From: Martelella limonii
GTDB lineage: Bacteria > Pseudomonadota > Alphaproteobacteria > Rhizobiales > Rhizobiaceae
Direction: 5' to 3'
DNA: 64,000 nt
Assembly: GCF_013344475.1 (NCBI RefSeq)
Contig: NZ_JABUOU010000002.1
Coordinates: forward strand, 186,001-250,000
The translations under genes were made by a program, and so were the position numbers. Below the pieces are notes generated by a model. The model was not told the origin of the DNA, did no database searches, and was given only the letters and a program-made list of their open reading frames with translations. Positions 32,929 to 54,659 of the stretch are shown here, in pieces (position 1 is the first letter of the stretch; each line of letters begins with the position of its first letter).

Positions 32929-33060
32929 CGGCGCGCTTGCCGCTATTTACGTGAACAAAAAGCTGACGACGGCGCGCAGGCCAGGGAACGAACCTCCGCC
33001 ATGGCCGCGCCGTCGGCAAACATCAGCCAGGCTGCGAAAAAGCGGCCACCCTCATGGGCG

Positions 33061-33252
33061 ACATCCTCGGGCTTGGCCCGAGGATCGAGGCAGTTTTGCG
33101 CAGGCTAAAAATAACGTGAAAATTCAATTGCTTGAACGCTAGATGCTCGGATCAAGTCGAGCATGACACCTGTGGGTGAGGTTCGCGTGCGCGAGAGGAG
33201 CTGAACCTCAGGCTTTGTCGGCAGTCTGAGATCTTCCCGGTACGGGAAGATC
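33061..33252. repeat. Dispersed paired-palindrome repeat, copy A
   Basis: The 369-bp gene-free gap 32929-33297 holds one copy of the repeat family seen elsewhere in this window. Palindrome 1 is ATCCTCGGG / CCCGAGGAT (33063-33085, 5-nt loop); palindrome 2 is ATGCTCGG...CGAGCAT (33143-33164). It ends in a TTTGTCGGCAGTCTGA tail (33215-33229) shared with the array after aspS. A third hairpin, ATCTTCCCG / CGGGAAGAT (33231-33251), may terminate yebC transcription. The part 32929-33060 shows no gene or signal. Confidence 0.8.
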
Positions 33253-36032: not shown

Positions 36033-36079
36033 ACGGGGAGGCGGGAGCGAAGACGATGCTCGCCCCGCTTTCCTCCGTC

Positions 36080-36221
36080 ATGCTCGGGCTTGTCCCGAGC
36101 ATCTAATCACGTGTCGACACGAAAAGCGTTTCGGGTAAAAATCATTGATTACGGTTCGTGAATAACCGCCAATGCAGCTCGTGCGGAGCGTTGGTTAGAT
36201 CCTCGGGTCAAGCCCGAGGAT
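36080..36221. repeat. Dispersed paired-palindrome repeat, copy B
   Basis: In the gap between the channel gene and ppx, ATGCTCGGG / CCCGAGCAT (36080-36102, loop CTTGT) and ATCCTCGGG / CCCGAGGAT (36199-36221, loop TCAAG) form two perfect 9-bp-stem palindromes 96 bp apart. They are inverted with respect to each other and to copy A. No gene lies in 36033-36300. Confidence 0.8.
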
Positions 36222-36300
36222 GACGCGGAGTATGGGGACAGGTTTGTCTGAACTCTGAGTTTGAACCGTGGGGCGGGCTATTTCGAACGTCAGAAACGTT

Positions 36301-42905: not shown

Positions 42906-44060
42906 TCAAACGTCGATCATCTCGACTTTCCTGTCGACGAAACGCAGAGCGACATCGCCGGCGAGAAGCCTGAGCGCCGGGTCGCCGTAAAGCTTTCGGC
43001 GCCAGCCCTTCATGGCTTCGACGTCGGCATTTTCGCCTTCCGAGGCGATCCTGTCGAGATCGTCGGAGGATGCGATCACGCGGGCGGCGACCTGGTTCTG
43101 CTCGGCAACGATCTTCAGCAGCACCTTCAGCAGTTCCGCCGCTGCGGCAGCGCCTTCAGGAAGCTGCGGCTGGCGGGGCAGGCGCGGAAGCTCCGCCTTC
43201 GGAATGGCAAGCGCGCTCTTGACCGCTTCCATCAGACCGGCGGCGGGCTGCGAGCGTTCCCAGCCCTTCGGGATCATGCGCAGCTTGGCAAGCGCGTCCG
43301 GCTCGGTCGGGTGCTGCTGGGCGATTTCGTAGATCGAGTCGTCCTTCAGCACGCGGCGGCGCGGCACATCGCGCGCGCGCGCCTCGTTCTCGCGCCACTC
43401 GGCAACCTTCTGCATCACGGCAAAATCGAGCGGCTTCTTGATCCGGAGCTTGAGCCGCGTCCAGGCCTGTTCCGGCGGCAGGTCGTAGGTTTCGGGATTT
43501 TCGAGGATCGCCATTTCCTCTTCCACCCAATCGGTGCGACCCTCGCGCTCCAGCTCTTCCTTGAGCTTCAGGTAGACGTCGCGCAGATGGGTGACATCGG
43601 CGAGCGCATAGGAAAGCTGCTTCTCGTTCAGCGGTCGCGCGCGCCAATCGGTAAAGCGCGAGGACTTGTCGATATGCGCGCCGGTCAGCCGTGCGACCAA
43701 CTGGTCATAGGAGATGCTGTCGCCGAAGCCGCAGACCATGGCTGCAACCTGGGTGTCGAACAGCGGCGCCGGCAGCATGTTGCCGAGATGGTAGACGATC
43801 TCGAGATCCTGGCGCGCCGCGTGGAACACCTTCACCACGGAGGTGTCGGCCATCAGTTTGAAGAACGGCGCAAGATCGAGCCCCTTGGCCAAAGGATCGA
43901 CCAGCACTTCCAGGTCAGGACTTGCCATCTGGATCAGGCAGAGCTGCGGCCAGAACGTGGTTTCGCGGATGAATTCGGTATCGATCGTGACGAAGTCGGA
44001 TTTGGCGAGCGTCTCGCAGGCCTCGGCAAGGGCGGCGGTGGTTTCAATCATCTCAAACAA
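42906..44060 (-). CDS. rnd: Ribonuclease D
   Basis: 3'-to-5' exoribonuclease of 384 residues that matures tRNA and other RNAs. The DEDDy exonuclease motifs are FVTIDTEFIRE (Exo I, Asp and Glu), VFHAARQDLEIVYHLG (Exo II, Asp) and KQLSYALADVTHLRDVYLKL (Exo III, Tyr-x3-Asp). An HRDC domain follows (RDVPRRRVLKDDSIYEIAQQHP). Divergent from aspS across a 497-bp gap. Confidence 0.95.
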   Translation of the reverse strand: MFEMIETTAALAEACETLAKSDFVTIDTEFIRETTFWPQLCLIQMASPDLEVLVDPLAKGLDLAPFFKLMADTSVVKVFHAARQDLEIVYHLGNMLPAPLFDTQVAAMVCGFGDSISYDQLVARLTGAHIDKSSRFTDWRARPLNEKQLSYALADVTHLRDVYLKLKEELEREGRTDWVEEEMAILENPETYDLPPEQAWTRLKLRIKKPLDFAVMQKVAEWRENEARARDVPRRRVLKDDSIYEIAQQHPTEPDALAKLRMIPKGWERSQPAAGLMEAVKSALAIPKAELPRLPRQPQLPEGAAAAAELLKVLLKIVAEQNQVAARVIASSDDLDRIASEGENADVEAMKGWRRKLYGDPALRLLAGDVALRFVDRKVEMIDV

Positions 44061-44220
44061 CGTATCTTCCTGTTACGCCATCTTTCCTTGGCCTTTGCGG
44101 CGGCGATGTCAAGGGAAGGGGTGGGGGCGTATGCAAAACGCGGCCCGAATACGCGGTTGAGGGATTGGATTCTCGGTGCCGGTTCAACGATGTCATGAGG
44201 CGTTGGCCTCACGCACTCCC

Positions 44221-44361
44221 GTCATCCTCGGCCTTGTGCCGAGGATCTAACCCCGTTTCGTCGCGAGCGGAGTTGGCGTTGTGTCGAGGTTTAAGGAGAG
44301 CGGCCGACACGCCTGTCGTGGGGTGACGTGCTTGGATCCTCGGCACAAGGCCGAGGATGAC
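44221..44361. repeat. Dispersed paired-palindrome repeat, copy C, inside a 497-bp gap
   Basis: The gap 44061-44557 between rnd and aspS has no credible gene. It holds two palindromes, ATCCTCGGC / GCCGAGGAT at 44224-44246 and at 44336-44358. The full 27-bp segments 44221-44247 and 44335-44361 are exact reverse complements of each other, 87 bp apart, so a long cruciform or RNA stem is possible. This is the best-preserved copy of the family in the window. Confidence 0.85.
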
Positions 44362-44467
44362 GCAGAGACGGGGAAAGGTCAGTGTGCCACCGACGTTCAT
44401 GCGGGAATTTGACTTATTCTCTTTGACTCGAGACAACCCGATTTCCGCCCCTCAACAGGCCTTTTCC

Positions 44468-44496
44468 TTGACAAAACGCCCCCGCCGTGCGTTTTT
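44468..44496 (+). promoter_or_regulatory. Candidate aspS promoter
   Basis: A perfect TTGACA hexamer (44468-44473), preceded by C as in rhizobial CTTGAC promoters, lies 85 bp before the aspS start. The expected -10 position 17 bp later (44491-44496, GTTTTT) is a poor match, so only the -35 element is convincing. Confidence 0.35.
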
Positions 44497-44557
44497 CCGC
44501 GCGAATTCATGACAAGGGGCCGCGCCGCGCGCCCGAAAACCCTTTACGGATACGATT

Positions 44558-46345
44558 ATGCACCCCTATCGCAGCCATACCTGTGCCGCTCTCAACAAGT
44601 CCGACGTTGGCCAGACCGCCCGCCTTTCCGGCTGGGTGCACCGCGTGCGCGACCATGGCGGCGTGCTCTTCATCGACCTGCGTGACCATTACGGCATGAC
44701 CCAGGTGGTTGCCGATCCGGATTCGCCTGCCTTCGCCACTGCCGAGAAGGTGCGCGGCGAATGGGTGATTCGCATTGACGGCAAGGTGCGTGCCCGTACC
44801 GAAGATACGGTCAACAAGAACATGGCGACCGGCGAGATCGAGCTCTATGCCGAGGAAATCGAGGTTCTGTCGGCTGCCAAGGAACTGCCGGTTCCGGTGT
44901 TCGGCGAGCCCGAATATCCGGAAGATGTCCGTCTCAAGTACCGCTTCCTCGATCTGCGCCGCGAAACGCTGCATGCCAACATCGTCAAGCGCACCAAGAT
45001 CGTCGCCGCGATGCGCGCCGCCATGGCCGACAACGGCTTCGGCGAATATTCGACGCCGATCCTGACGGCCTCGTCGCCGGAAGGCGCGCGCGACTTCCTG
45101 GTGCCGAGCCGTATCCATCAGGGCAAGTTCTACGCGCTGCCGCAGGCCCCGCAGCAGTACAAGCAGCTGCTGATGGTCGCCGGTTTCGACCGGTATTTCC
45201 AGATCGCGCCGTGCTTCCGCGACGAAGACCCGCGCGCCGACCGCCTGCCGGGCGAGTTCTACCAGCTCGACGTCGAGATGAGCTTCGTCACCCAGGAAGA
45301 CGTCTGGGAAACGATGGAGCCGGTGATGACCGGCATCTTCGAAAAGTTCGCCGAGGGCAAGCCGGTCACCAAGAAGTGGCCGCGCATTCCCTATGACGAG
45401 GCGATCCGCAAATATGGTTCCGACAAGCCGGACCTCCGCAACCCGATCGTGATGGAAGCCGTCACCGAACATTTCGCCGGCTCCGGCTTCAAGGTGTTTG
45501 CCGGCATGATCGAGAAGAACCCGAAGGTCGAAGTCTGGGCAATTCCGGCTAAGACCGGCGGTTCGCGCGCGTTCTGCGACCGGATGAACTCCTGGGCGCA
45601 GGGCCAGGGCCAGCCCGGCCTCGGCTACATCTTCTGGCGCAAGGAGGGCGAGAGCCTCGACGGCGCCGGCCCGCTTGCCAAAAACATCGGCCCGGAGCGC
45701 ACCGAGGCGATCCGCGCGCAGCTCGGCCTCGATGAGGGCGATGCCTGCTTCTTCGTCGCTGGCGAACCGTCCAAGTTCTACAAGTTTGCAGGCGAAGCCC
45801 GCACCCGCGTCGGCGACGAGCTGGGCCTCACCGACAAGGACCGCTACGAGTTTTGCTGGATCGTCGACTTCCCGTTCTATGAATGGCTGGAAGACGAGAA
45901 GAAGGTCGATTTCTCGCACAACCCGTTCTCGATGCCGCAGGGCGGCCTCGCGGCGCTTGAAAACGAAGACCCGCTGACGATCAAGGCCTACCAGTATGAC
46001 GCCGTCTGCAACGGCTACGAGATTGCCTCCGGCTCGATCCGTAACCAGCTGCCGGAAGTCATGGTCAAGGCGTTCGAGATCACGGGCAAGAGCGCTGCCG
46101 ACGTGGAAGAGCAGTTCGGCGGCCTCTACCGCGCCTTCCAGTACGGCGCGCCCCCGCATGGCGGCTGCGCCTTCGGCATCGACCGCATCGTGATGCTGCT
46201 CGCCGGCGCCAAGACCGTGCGCGAAGTGGCCCTGTTCCCGATGAACCAGCAGGCCCAGGACCTGCTGATGGGCGGCCCGTCCGAAGCCGAACCCGCGCAG
46301 CTGCGCGAACTTGGCCTGAGGCTGATGCCGAAGAAAGCCGACTGA
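44558..46345 (+). CDS. aspS: Aspartate-tRNA ligase
   Basis: Class II aminoacyl-tRNA synthetase of 595 residues that charges tRNA(Asp), possibly also tRNA(Asn). An N-terminal OB-fold anticodon domain (about 15-110, [22 protein letters not shown]) is followed by the catalytic core: motif 2 with [23 protein letters not shown], the bacterial insertion (GAD) domain, and motif 3 [16 protein letters not shown], with the active-site MPQGG. A strong terminator follows at 46372. Confidence 0.98.
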
Positions 46346-46371
46346 CACTTTCAGTCTTTGCATTTGAAAGA

Positions 46372-46400
46372 CCCCGGCGAGCGATCGCCGGGGTTTTCGT
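46372..46400 (+). terminator. Rho-independent terminator of aspS
   Basis: CCCCGGCGA (46372-46380) pairs with TCGCCGGGG (46385-46393) around a GCGA tetraloop, followed by TTTTCGTTTG. It is 26 bp past the aspS stop. Degraded copies of its 3' half and tail recur at about 46617 and 46843 inside the tandem array. Confidence 0.88.
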
Positions 46401-47030
46401 TTGTTGACAAATCTCCCCCGGGGTCATCCTCGTGCTTGACACGAGGATCCAGGCAACACGGTCAGCGTCGGCAATAAGGCGCAGGAAAATCAACCGTTTG
46501 ACCCGCCTGGATGCTCGGATCAAGTCCGAGCATGACTCTGTGGGTGCGGTTTGAGTTAGTGAAAATCTCCCAAGCTTTGGTCTTGTCCGCAGTCTGACCA
46601 CCGCGAACGACCGCCAGGGTTTTCGTTTTTTGACAAACCTCCCCCGGGGTCATCCTCGCGCTTGACACGAGGATCCAGGCAACACGGTTAGCGTCGGCAA
46701 TAAGGCGCAGTAAAATCAACCGTTTGACCTGCCTGGATGCTCGGATCAAGTCCGAGCATGACTCTGTGGGGGATGTTGGAGTGAGTGAATTTCTCACAAG
46801 CAGTGGTCTTGTCAGCAGTCTGAACACGGCGAGCGATCGTTGGGGTTTTCGTTTGCTGAAAAACCTGTCCTCAAACTCGGGGTCATCCTCGTGCTTGACA
46901 CGAGGATCCAGGCAACACGGTCAGTGTTCGCAACAAGGCGCAGGAAATCAACCGCTTGAGTCGCCTTGATGCTCGGATCAAGTCCGACGAGGACAGGTGT
47001 GAGTGAGGTCGGCGCGCGTGAATGGCTCTG
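46376..47030. repeat. Tandem array of about three 226-bp units, each with two palindromes
   Basis: The 869-bp gap 46346-47214 is gene-free and mainly made of a tandem repeat. The landmark GGGTTTTCG recurs at 46391, 46617 and 46843, spaced exactly 226 bp. Each unit carries palindrome 1 (ATCCTCG...CGAGGAT at 46426-46448, 46652-46674, 46885-46907) and palindrome 2 (ATGCTCGGA / TCCGAGCAT at 46511-46533 and 46737-46759, decayed near 46969). Units 1 and 2 are very similar; unit 3 is more diverged and ends in degraded sequence. Units share a GCAGTCTGA tail with copy A. The remaining 47031-47214 is A+T-rich upstream sequence of the ABC transporter, with no clear promoter. Confidence 0.88.
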
Positions 47031-47214
47031 AAACTGTGACCTTATTATACTTTCGGCTAATGCTCACCCGTGCAAAGAAGAAAATGGCAAATAAATATTG
47101 AAGTGGAGAAGAATGGAATATAAATTCTTTTTTACGCGGAACGGGGAGCGGACCGCGCTTGGAGGAAACTGGCAGCCGTGAGGAGATGGGGCCGGTTTCG
47201 ATTGGGAGGAAATC

Positions 47215-48162
47215 ATGAAAAAGCAATTACTTGCATTCGCCGCGACCGCTTTGGCGCTTGGCGCCATGCTGCCTGCCGCAGCGCATGCCGAGGGCGAGCG
47301 TTTCGTTCTGATTTCGCATGCGCCGGATAGCGACAGCTGGTGGAACACCATCAAGAACGCGATCAATGTTGCGGGCGATCAGATGGATGTCGAGGTCGAG
47401 TACCGCAATCCGCCGACGGGCGACCTTGCCGACATGGCGCGCATTGTCCAGCAGGCGTCCGCGTCGAACCCGGATGGCATCATTGTCACCATCGCGGATT
47501 ATGATGTTCTTTCCGGCCCTGTCGCCGATGCGGTTGCCAAGGGCATTCCGGTCATCACCATCAATTCGGGCACCGAGGAACAGTCGAAGCAGCTCGGCGC
47601 AATGATGCATGTCGGCCAGCCGGAATATACCGCCGGCAAGCTTGCGGGCGAGCGCGCCAAGAAGGAATCGGGTGCCTCAAGCTTCCTCTGCGTCAACCAC
47701 TACATCACCAATCCGGCTTCGGTCGAGCGTTGCCAGGGCTTTGCTGATGGTCTCGGCGTCGAACTCGGCGACCAGATGATCGACAGCGGCATGGACCCGT
47801 CGGAGGTCAAGTCGAAGGTCTCGGCCTATCTCAGCGCCCATCCCGATACCGGCGCGATCCTGACGCTCGGCCCCAACTCCGCCGAACCGACGCTTGCGGC
47901 CCTTGAGGAAACCGGAAAGTCCGGCGAGATCTACTTCGGCACCTTCGACCTGTCGACTGCCATTGCCGATGCCATCAAGGCCGGAACGATCAACTTCGCG
48001 ATCGACCAGCAGCCCTATCTGCAGGGCTACCTTCCGGTCGTGATCCTGACCAATTACGCCCGCTACGGCGTGATGCCCTCCAACTCGATCAATTCCGGTC
48101 CCGGTTTCACGACCAAGGACAATATCGAGCTGGTCGAGAAATACGCCGGTCAGTACCGCTAG
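47215..48162 (+). CDS. Sugar ABC transporter periplasmic binding protein (CUT2/RbsB-like)
   Basis: Periplasmic binding protein of 315 residues with a signal peptide (residues 1-25, cut after AHA). The mature protein begins RFVLISHAPDSDSWWNTIKNAINVAGDQMDVEVEYRNPPTGD and has ITINSGTEEQ and CVNHYITNPASVERCQGFADGL, as in the FrcB/RbsB group of type 1 sugar binders. With the next two genes it forms a full importer resembling the Sinorhizobium FrcBCA system, but the sugar (fructose, ribose, a polyol or other) cannot be told. A hairpin follows its stop. Confidence 0.9.
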   Translation: MKKQLLAFAATALALGAMLPAAAHAEGERFVLISHAPDSDSWWNTIKNAINVAGDQMDVEVEYRNPPTGDLADMARIVQQASASNPDGIIVTIADYDVLSGPVADAVAKGIPVITINSGTEEQSKQLGAMMHVGQPEYTAGKLAGERAKKESGASSFLCVNHYITNPASVERCQGFADGLGVELGDQMIDSGMDPSEVKSKVSAYLSAHPDTGAILTLGPNSAEPTLAALEETGKSGEIYFGTFDLSTAIADAIKAGTINFAIDQQPYLQGYLPVVILTNYARYGVMPSNSINSGPGFTTKDNIELVEKYAGQYR

Positions 48163-48170
48163 ATCGTGAT

Positions 48171-48196
48171 CGCCGCGCCCTCGGGCGCGGCGTTTT
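48171..48196 (+). terminator. Hairpin with T tail after the sugar-binding protein gene
   Basis: CGCCGCGCCC (48171-48180) and GGGCGCGGCG (48183-48192) can form a long G+C stem followed by TTTTCC. It lies 8 bp after the stop and 88 bp before the permease start. It probably acts as a leaky terminator or 3' stabiliser, giving more binding protein than membrane components. Confidence 0.75.
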
Positions 48197-48280
48197 CCTG
48201 AAAACCCGCAAACCGAGATGACCCGCGCGCCAGCCGGCCGCGCAGCGGCATCTCATTGCCCTCAGAAACGGGTGAAAGCC

Positions 48281-49417
48281 ATGTCGGAAGCACCGACCCG
48301 CAAACCGATAGACGAGATGGTGGCCGAAGAGCGCATGCGGCCTGTGCCACGCTGGCGCAAGGCGCTTGTGCGGCCGGAACTCGGCAGTATCTGCGGCACA
48401 ATCCTGGTATTCGTATTCTTCATGTTCATTGCCGGCGACAGCGGCATGTTCTCCGCTGAAGGCTTCATCAACTGGGGCACCGTTTCCGCGCAGTTCGCCA
48501 TCATCGCCGTCGGCGCCTGCCTGTTGATGATTGCAGGAGAGTTCGACCTTTCGATCGGCTCGATGATCGGCTTTTCAGGCATCATCATCGCGCTCCTGAC
48601 GGTGCAGGTGGGACTGCCTGCCTGGGTCGCGATCCTGGTCGCGTTTGCGCTTGCGCTCGCGATCGGCGCACTCAACGGCTATCTGGTCATCCGCACGGGG
48701 CTTCCCTCGTTCATCGTCACGCTTGCCTTCCTGTTTATCCTGAGGGGCCTTACGATCTATATCGCGATCTCCGCCACCTCGAAGACCATCATCGGCGGTG
48801 TGCGCGAGGCAGCCGAGGGCGACTGGCTGGCCGCTCTCTTCGGCGGCAAGGTGCTGACGGGGCTTTTCACCTGGCTTGCCGATCAGGGCATGATCTCCAA
48901 GTTCGTCGCCGGTCCCCGGGCCGGCCAGCCCGTGGTGGACGGCATTCCGATGCTGATGGTCTGGGCGCTTGTGCTGATCGTCATCGGACATTTCATCCTG
49001 GTGCGCACCAAATTCGGCAACTGGATCTTTGCCGCCGGCGGCGATGCGCAGGCCGCGCGCTATGTCGGCGTCCCGGTCAACCGGGTCAAGATCCTGATGT
49101 TCATGCTGACGGCCTTCTGCGCCACCGTGTTCGCCACCTGCCAGGTCATGGAATTCGGCTCGGCTGCGGCAGACCGCGGTCTTCTGAAAGAGTTCGAGGC
49201 GATCATTTCGGTGGTCATCGGCGGCGCGCTTCTGACCGGCGGCTATGGTTCCGTGATCGGCGCAGCGCTTGGCGCGCTGATCTTCGGTGTGGTCCAGCAG
49301 GGGCTGTTCTTCGCAGGCGTCGAAAGTTCGCTGTTCCGCGTCTTCCTCGGTGTCATCCTGCTGCTCGCCGTCATTCTCAACACCTATATCCGCCGCCGCA
49401 TCACGGGAGAACGTTAA
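48281..49417 (+). CDS. Sugar ABC transporter permease (FrcC-like)
   Basis: CUT2-family permease of 378 residues with about ten membrane segments. The conserved loop [20 protein letters not shown] and [20 protein letters not shown] are present, with [31 protein letters not shown] near the cytoplasmic coupling region. The ATG at 48281 is chosen; an upstream frame to 48218 overlaps the hairpin region. An extended loop between about 175 and 235 is longer than in RbsC. It ends 1 bp before the ATPase gene. Confidence 0.9.
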
Positions 49418-49418
49418 G

Positions 49419-50198
49419 ATGAGCACGCCCCTGATCGAACTCGTCGATATCGAGAAGCATTTCGGCCCCGTCATCGCGCTTGCGGGCGTTTCGCTGTCGG
49501 TCAACGCCGGAGAATGCCATTGCCTCCTCGGCGATAACGGCGCCGGCAAGTCGACCTTCATCAAGACGATGTCGGGTGTTCACAAGCCGAGTTCCGGCCG
49601 CATCCTCGTCGATGGCAAGGAGAAGGTGTTCTCCGATCCGCGCGACGCGATGGCGGCAGGCATTGCCACCGTCTATCAGGATCTCGCCATGATCCCGCTG
49701 ATGTCGGTGACCCGCAATTTCTGGATGGGTCGCGAGCCGGAAAAGCGCTTCGGCCCGATCAAGGTATTCGACCACAAGAAGGCGGGCGCGATCACGGTCG
49801 GCGAGATGGCGAAGATGGGCATTCACCTGCGCTCTGCCGATCAGGCCGTGGGCACGCTTTCGGGCGGCGAACGGCAGACGGTGGCCATTGCCCGCGCGGT
49901 CTATTTCGGTGCGCGGGTTCTGATCCTCGATGAGCCGACCTCGGCGCTCGGCGTGCGCCAGACGGCCAATGTGCTCTCCACCATCGACCGCGTGCGCAAG
50001 GCCGGCGTCGGCGTCATCTTCATCACCCACAATGTCCGCCATGCGCTCGCTGTCGGCGACCGGTTTACCGTGATCAATCACGGCAAGACGCTCGGTACCG
50101 CAAGGCGCGGCGAGATTGGTGCTGAGGAGCTTCAGGACATGATGGCCGGGGGACGCGAAATGGTCGAGCTGGAATCCTCGCTGGGCGGCACGGTCTGA
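49419..50198 (+). CDS. Sugar ABC transporter ATP-binding protein (FrcA-like, single domain)
   Basis: ATPase of 259 residues with a single ABC domain, unlike the double AraG/RbsA type. Walker A is GDNGAGKST, the Q-loop stretch is [23 protein letters not shown], the signature [15 protein letters not shown], Walker [12 protein letters not shown] and the switch histidine is in [11 protein letters not shown] single-domain ATPase with a CUT2 permease is the FrcA arrangement. The ATG at 49419 follows the permease stop by 1 bp. No regulator of its own is adjacent; pcaQ converges from the right. Confidence 0.93.
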
Positions 50199-54431: not shown

Positions 54432-54545
54432 GCGCGCGACCGGTCTGATCGGGCGCAGCCGGAGGGTTGCGAAGAAGACCGAGCCGCGAGGGCATTGAAT
54501 CTCGCAGGCCTTTAGCCGTTCTGCCTTTGGCTTCGTGTCTCCCGG

Positions 54546-54568
54546 ATGCTCGGGTCGCGCCCGGGGAC
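54546..54568. repeat. Degenerate copy of the palindrome family
   Basis: ATGCTCGGG (54546-54554) faces a decayed CCCGGGGAC (54560-54568) around 5 nt; the end of the gap has GCAGTCTGG near 54625, similar to the tail of the other copies. The 228-bp gap 54432-54659 has no gene. Confidence 0.5.
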
Positions 54569-54659
54569 GACACGCTTGGGAAAGTTTGGCCTGGACCAAG
54601 ACCTCTGCAGCCGCGAGTTTCTCAGCAGTCTGGGGGGAGGTACTCTCCCCCCATTTAAG

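Follow-up and report, generated by a model that had tools for sequence, protein, structure and literature searches.

With DDE transposases, the target duplication is usually short and of a length determined by the enzyme. For IS1182, whose family transposases we take to be of the DDE type, ISfinder reportedly lists very variable target repeats. The palindromic repeat RIME carries two large palindromes. IS1272/TnSha1, an IS1182-family system of Staphylococcus, is described in the available text of two papers as targeting stem-loops that are often terminators, with weak sequence preference or none, and as replacing or partly deleting the target hairpin with no target duplication (PMC4923244; PMC5678879). 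One possible pathway in the second paper (pathway b of Fig 13, likewise from the text available) would duplicate the whole stem-loop by joining at its 5' feet, a proposal made on paper and accompanied by no example in that text. The short intergenic element YPAL, or RU-2, of Yersinia has target duplications of 3-26 bp that span or lie beside dyad symmetry, and its inverted repeats are internal, while CIR, found in Caulobacter and Brucella, consists of two long stem-loops joined by a linker, is without terminal inverted repeats and is marked by GANTC sites, according to the accessible part of their description, which names no helper for YPAL (PMC2229807).

The locus considered here is an array behind the aspartyl-tRNA synthetase gene aspS in a 64,000-nucleotide stretch of the Martelella limonii genome, hereafter the window. 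Its element resembles IS1272 in its hairpin target and in the family name of the transposase, and differs in that the hairpin is duplicated, flush in 36 of 46 loci, and not deleted. It fits pathway b, as far as the available text of PMC5678879 sets it out, and brings to it a helper, a rule for the duplication length and empty sites. It shares with YPAL a variable target duplication at or beside dyad symmetry, here of 16-33 bp and near the hairpin length in 34 of 36 loci, but its termini are inverted repeats, a comparison made by description. It can be set beside RIME, by description only, as a rhizobial intergenic repeat (PMC2573895, from the text available). CIR, again compared by description, is likewise alphaproteobacterial with two stem-loops, but the window family has terminal inverted repeats. 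In the literature searched, which covered few subscription papers and no ISfinder entries, no account was found of an IS1182 element or a rhizobial MITE that duplicates a whole hairpin, though one may exist in print elsewhere; a relative is known in IS1272, whole-hairpin duplication has been proposed on paper and YPAL comes close. From the sequence comparisons set out below, we consider it very probable that the aspS array was built by a mobile element that targets terminators and duplicates the whole hairpin, that this element was mobilised by an IS1182-family transposase, and that the array then grew in place.

Table 1. Coordinates, within the window, of the aspS array and of other copies of the element.
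Feature	Position	Strand	Evidence
Presumed aspS (aspartyl-tRNA synthetase), whose terminator is the insertion target	44558..46345	+	595-aa ORF; relatives encoded at 80 loci fetched from Rhizobiales records
T0, aspS terminator stem-loop, intact	46372..46393	+	Letter-for-letter once in the aspS stretch of two congeners; -22.5 kcal/mol (with flanks)
T0 T tail (TTTTC)	46394..46398	+	Sequence
E1, first element copy (putative MITE), ends CTGA	46399..46597	+	Profile match 2-207 of 207, E 1.1e-55 (E1 itself in profile); ends like dispersed copies
E1 first palindrome	46426..46448	+	Sequence
E1 second palindrome	46511..46533	+	Sequence
T1, duplicated terminator hairpin, decayed	46598..46619	+	5/22 positions changed relative to T0; -7.1 kcal/mol
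E2, second element copy	46625..46823	+	Profile match 2-207, E 2.2e-55 (E2 itself in profile)
T2, duplicated terminator hairpin, decayed	46824..46845	+	4/22 positions changed relative to T0; -7.7 kcal/mol
E3, third element copy, mosaic, approximate end	46851..47041	+	Profile match 2-196 to 47045, E 4.8e-49 (E3 outside profile)
Another copy, 5' end missing	33055..33229	+	Profile match; 3' end flush with hairpin GATCTTCCCGGTACGGGAAGATC
Divergent copy	36059..36248	-	Profile match E 1.6e-17
3' half of a copy	54540..54632	+	Profile match E 8.3e-7; ends CAGTCTG directly before inverted repeat and T run

We take the reading frame in front of the array to be aspS, as the preliminary description named it. 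The array is the single strong one that TRF detected in the window (46370-46987; period 226, 2.7 copies, 86% matches, score 910, against a score of 40 for the two remaining arrays listed), and its overall order is T0-E1-T1-E2-T2-E3 (Table 1). The preliminary description had reported such an array, with exact 226-bp steps and with units 1 and 2 close to each other. The array is real and these two units are 90% identical across 226 bases without gaps; the exact step holds from unit 1 to unit 2 but not for unit 3, which is shifted by 6-7 bp within the element and brings the repeat spacings to 226 and then 232-233. Both palindromes recur in every unit, as had been noted, the second being altered in unit 3. 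The preliminary description had spoken of a paired-palindrome element; the element is larger than that, in that about 199 of the 226 bp of a unit belong to a dispersed, apparently transposable element with terminal inverted repeats TCAGNYTGYTGACAAANC and the two palindromes inside.

Unit 3 is a mosaic. Compared with unit 1 in 25-base windows, it agrees at 21-25 of 24-25 positions over the first 125 bases, and its tail (bases 151-175) matches the subtype of copy L091 at 22 of 25 positions, against 14 of 25 for unit 1. With only 77% identity to unit 1 overall and the tail of another subtype, it may owe its present form to conversion or to a separate insertion. The junctions between units proved to be decayed copies of the aspS terminator, as first proposed: T0 is the same as in the empty site described below, and the folding energy of T1 and T2 is down by about two thirds, as would be expected of spare terminators. 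The native T tail TTTTC stands at each of the three junctions where other copies of the element read TCA, so the first aspS insertion was atypical or has changed since. The right-hand limit of the array lies near 47041, where host sequence of congeners aligns again; the 3' end of E3 and the adjoining host bases are missing, as is a distal terminator copy, if one ever existed. A search of window positions 44000-49500 against Rfam gave four matches, the best with E 0.033, all under the gathering scores.

Unit 1 has at least 56 matches in its own 4.54-Mb genome (40 of 94 candidates scored) and the consensus at least 51 (40 of 81 candidates scored), 18 of which cover at least 189 of the 207 positions and many of which cover one palindrome only. 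When the query was extended past the unit, ten matching pieces stopped at 46595-46597 and five started at 46396-46402. Alignment of 22 dispersed copies with the three units delimits an element of about 200 bp, with a 5' end near GTTTGTTGACAAACC, the two palindromes and a 3' end near CTTTGTCAGCAGYCTGA; beyond these ends, most aligned rows show a terminator-like hairpin that varies between loci and matches between the two sides of one locus. The consensus and the profile (207 positions) were built from 21 of these 25 rows, leaving out u3, L096, L099 and L100. The end pattern TCAGNYTGYTGACAAANC (18 bases, at most one mismatch) has 18 matches in the own genome and from 0 (G003) to 113 (G007) across 12 congeners, and the reversed pattern has none in any of these 13 genomes. 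Short, bounded by terminal inverted repeats and with no gene recognised inside, the element has the build of a MITE.

Facing end pairs in the congeners lie 81-396 bp apart, most of them 194-228 bp. Elements of other sizes with the same ends include two of 114 bp (L248 and L249, G008), one of 81 bp (L254, G005), for which a flank duplication is not clear, and one of 396 bp (L235, G007). An end pair 1444 bp apart (L236, G007) was considered as an autonomous partner and rejected, being by eye a MITE copy whose second palindrome is interrupted (L236:1001-2444) by an IS481-family element with its own 5-bp duplication, ACGAG. In the window, a facing palindrome pair like that of the element, without the element ends, lies at 44201-44377, between the gene at 42906-44060 and aspS.

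The hairpins that flank a copy belong to its locus. In the own genome, left and right flanks align with a score of at least 12 in 17 of the 25 aligned rows (one of these, L093, not flush), whereas 590 cross pairs used as a control never scored above 14 and had their 99th percentile at 11; the eight rows below the threshold are u3, whose right flank is lost, L081, L092, L095, L096, L097, L098 and L100. In congeners, loci were selected by their inverted ends alone so as to avoid choosing on body similarity. This gave 42 opposite-facing end pairs, 81-396 bp apart, among the matches listed, leaving out L160, L161, L164, L172, L197 and L198, already fetched by similarity, and the interrupted L236; two own-genome end pairs (the L090 pair and C3:49379-49573) also stand outside this set, and the 40 congener loci fetched by similarity were displayed only and excluded from the scoring. 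The flank score reached at least 12 in 34 of the 42 loci, versus 5 of 1722 mismatched pairs (maximum 16), and the other eight have no clear flank duplication. At L213, for instance, the same 21 bases, a perfect hairpin, stand on each side, flush with TCAG and CTGA. Since single, non-tandem copies carry the hairpin of their own locus on both sides, the terminator copy appears to come with the insertion of the element. The preliminary description had derived the junctions from duplication of a block that starts within the terminator; local tandem duplication agrees with the kinship of neighbouring units reported below, but the array event would not have been the first to copy the terminator.

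The length of the duplication follows that of the hairpin. Adding four IS loci to the 42 end-picked congener loci gave 46 loci, and an ungapped flush duplication (score at least 10) was found in 36 of them, with lengths of 16-33 bp (median 22); the ten that scored below 10 do not pass the flush test and were omitted from the length comparison. Hairpin length was estimated from one flank alone and then compared with the duplication length. The two agreed within 2 bp in 34 of 36 loci with the left flank, and in as many with the right; when the left lengths were permuted 5000 times, the agreements averaged 15 and never exceeded 23. A flush hairpin is present at 37 of 46 left ends and 34 of 46 right ends, versus 22 of 365 shifted control positions. 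At least four T are found in the seven bases past the right hairpin in 19 of 34 cases, and at least four A in the seven bases preceding the left hairpin in 26 of 37, the background of this tract test being 7 of 92. The targets thus resemble intrinsic terminators, often bidirectional, and after insertion one side tends to keep a hairpin and its A tract, the other a hairpin and its T tract. Many of the duplications are imperfect and hence presumably old.

Empty sites were found at two loci. In the congeners G001 and G005, 67 and 70 bp separate the end of aspS from sequence matching the window from 47041 onward, and the 22-base hairpin occurs once; the alignment is usable from the end of aspS onward, and the hairpin was confirmed by exact match. 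The second is at the L090 locus, where G011 has one hairpin (by eye). At the L083 locus, where the congeners are rearranged, no clean empty site was seen. A profile search of 80 aspS loci with flanks of up to 4 kb, a set from which close kin of the window may be missing and whose closest members are Rhizobium and Shinella at 84-86%, found the element at none of them and returned one 30-base palindrome match. In G006 (L258, 1-3101), about 1.9 kb of other sequence, with AraC-like and SDR-like open frames (named by eye), lies between the end of aspS and the downstream gene for a periplasmic binding protein.

The same ends bound larger elements in other Rhizobiaceae. The exact end pattern is present in 17 of the 151 Rhizobiaceae genomes scanned, with IS-sized end pairs in G031 and G021, and five complete IS elements of 1475-1544 bp were recovered (L259, L260, L277, L278 and L319). 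They share with the window element its 18-bp ends, the hairpin target and the hairpin duplication; they are about 1.5 kb long with a transposase gene, against about 200 bp and no recognised gene for the window element, and the similarity was compared at the ends only, where they differ by at most one mismatch over the 17 bases compared. The elements at L278 and L277 (1532 and 1529 bp) encode intact transposases of 461 aa, which belong to the IS1182 family (NF033551, E 1.6e-142 and 3.4e-143, over the cut-off). The gene is broken at L260 and at L259, where both pieces match NF033551 below the whole-protein cut-off. Comparison piece by piece, made for five of six pairs, puts the identity among the transposases from the four genomes at 77-88%. 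Exact hairpin duplications of 19 bp and 22 bp flank L277 and L278, L259 is flanked by GGGGGAGCCAGTTCGGCTCCCCC and GGGGGAGCCCGTTCGGCTCCCCC, and L260 by a diverged 16-bp hairpin pair (13/16). In G065, a second copy of the L277 element (L319), with one difference in 1529 positions, sits at another terminator with an 18-bp hairpin duplication of its own; that two near-identical copies have different flanking hairpins shows the hairpin to be part of the target, duplicated along with the insertion. Of 15 further single ends, from IS or MITE (L262-L276), 14 are flush on a hairpin. On the basis of these ends and this habit we file the window element as a putative IS1182-family MITE, presumably mobilised in trans.

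At E 1e-100 the helper itself is found in 4 of 121 family genomes. Transposase profile and similarity searches of the own genome and of the 12 congeners yielded no intact helper that has these ends; in the own genome no transposase match passes the cut-off (best weak match E 4.5e-4) and none reaches E 1e-100. Helpers can be lost, and their presence in the host genome is not a strict requirement for a MITE. Movement of the element in the own genome and its congeners is therefore past, or depends on an IS beyond the genomes examined. One congener gene is over the transposase cut-off, an IS1182-family gene in open frame in G008 (C30, L279); it was rejected as a partner, since its identity to the helper is about 31% and the stretch read around it does not contain these ends. 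Among 37 listed places with a transposase match, 20 loci were compared with the helper and, except for G008, gave short pieces or nothing. The IS1202 family, a candidate for long duplications, was dropped as the transposase found is of the IS1182 family, and a Cas1-like geometry, as in CRISPR adaptation, was considered and dropped upon finding the transposase. The helper IS (L259, L260, L277 and L278) have small palindromes just inside their ends, AAACCCC..GGGGTTT, which recall those of the MITE and may matter for end recognition. In G029, G116, G119, G083, G026 and G063, many of the end-pattern copies listed are no more than about 130 bases from the end of a contig, which suggests a high-copy IS that breaks short-read assemblies.

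In the mechanism that we infer, transposition included, a MITE of about 200 bp would be moved in trans by an IS1182-family transposase that recognises the stem-loop of an intrinsic terminator, possibly extruded as a cruciform, and no sequence. The element ends would be joined to opposite strands, one at each outer foot of the stem, and repair would copy the whole hairpin to both sides, giving A tract, hairpin, TCAG..element..CTGA, hairpin and T tract. Each side would keep a hairpin with a tract that serves one strand (A on the left, T on the right), so that entry would probably cost little. At aspS, the first insertion would have produced T-E-T, and slippage or unequal exchange between direct repeats, either hairpins or elements, may then have produced T0-E1-T1-E2-T2-E3, with a later deletion removing the distal end of the array. 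T0 would have stayed intact and the spare terminators T1 and T2 would have decayed; conversion or a separate insertion may have contributed to the departure of unit 3. For the TTTTC at the junctions, one guess is an exchange at a shared GTTTG, which would also have restored the T tail to T0.

How much of this could be explained with no mobile element at all? That slippage simply duplicated in tandem a block whose start lies in the terminator, copying terminator and palindromes together, is in our opinion very unlikely. Local duplication did take part: in the copy-to-copy comparison, which omitted L096, L099 and L100, units 1 and 2 and the unit pairs at two other tandem loci are mutual nearest relatives (92%, 93% and 92%), against 84% at best among other pairs, and this argues that arrays grew in place. 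But a duplication without a mobile element is contradicted by the single copies, of the own genome and of congeners, that have a matching hairpin on either side, and speaking against it are also the same ends at many unrelated loci and the existence of empty sites. For the array step only, three elements might have inserted successively, each into the terminator copy left by its predecessor. This is conceivable, if rather unlikely: each duplicated hairpin would be a fresh target, and unit 3 has the 3' tail of the other subtype and is without the deletion of about 7 bases common to units 1 and 2, but these two units are 92% alike when the best copy outside the array reaches 78%, and the odd TTTTC is common to all three junctions.

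A palindromic repeat of the RIME or REP type, spread by a RAYT (a Y1 transposase) or by recombination, would make the flanking terminators selected and not duplicated. RIME repeats do exist in rhizobia (PMC2573895, from the part of the text available), and short matches limited to the palindromes occur in G015, G025 and G040, the first two without the exact end pattern. We nonetheless find this extremely unlikely, because the flanking hairpins match each other, in 34 of 42 own pairs against 5 of 1722 cross pairs, where a general terminator would not account for the match, and the ends are inverted repeats common to an IS1182-family element. The array is repetitive and the assembly consists of 40 contigs, yet an artefact is scarcely credible when units 1 and 2 differ by about 10% and unit 3 by more, too much for stuttered reads of one unit, and when congeners whose assemblies have 1-4 contigs (G012, G005) show the T-E-T layout again.

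The reading that we favour, a terminator-targeting element followed by growth of the array in place, can be widened from this locus to one branch within the IS1182 family, together with the MITEs of that branch, and there we lean towards it with more reserve. Transposition would be defined by structure, with strand transfer at the outer feet of the extruded cruciform, so that the length of the target hairpin sets that of the duplication; this would be the mirror of IS1272, and would bring with it a near-neutral niche, a structured 3' untranslated segment and T-E-T-E arrays. The length of the target duplication follows the target's own stem-loop and both target copies remain, which makes structure-dependent transposition directly readable, whereas until now the case for it has been made from IS1272, where the target is erased. 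A likely helper family can also be named for one class of rhizobial palindromic repeats. That the terminator is regenerated by the insertion suggests why such elements gather behind genes. If true, the duplication of terminators would open to elements a near-neutral niche behind genes, where transcripts would gain a structured 3' untranslated segment and T-E-T-E arrays would be seeded.
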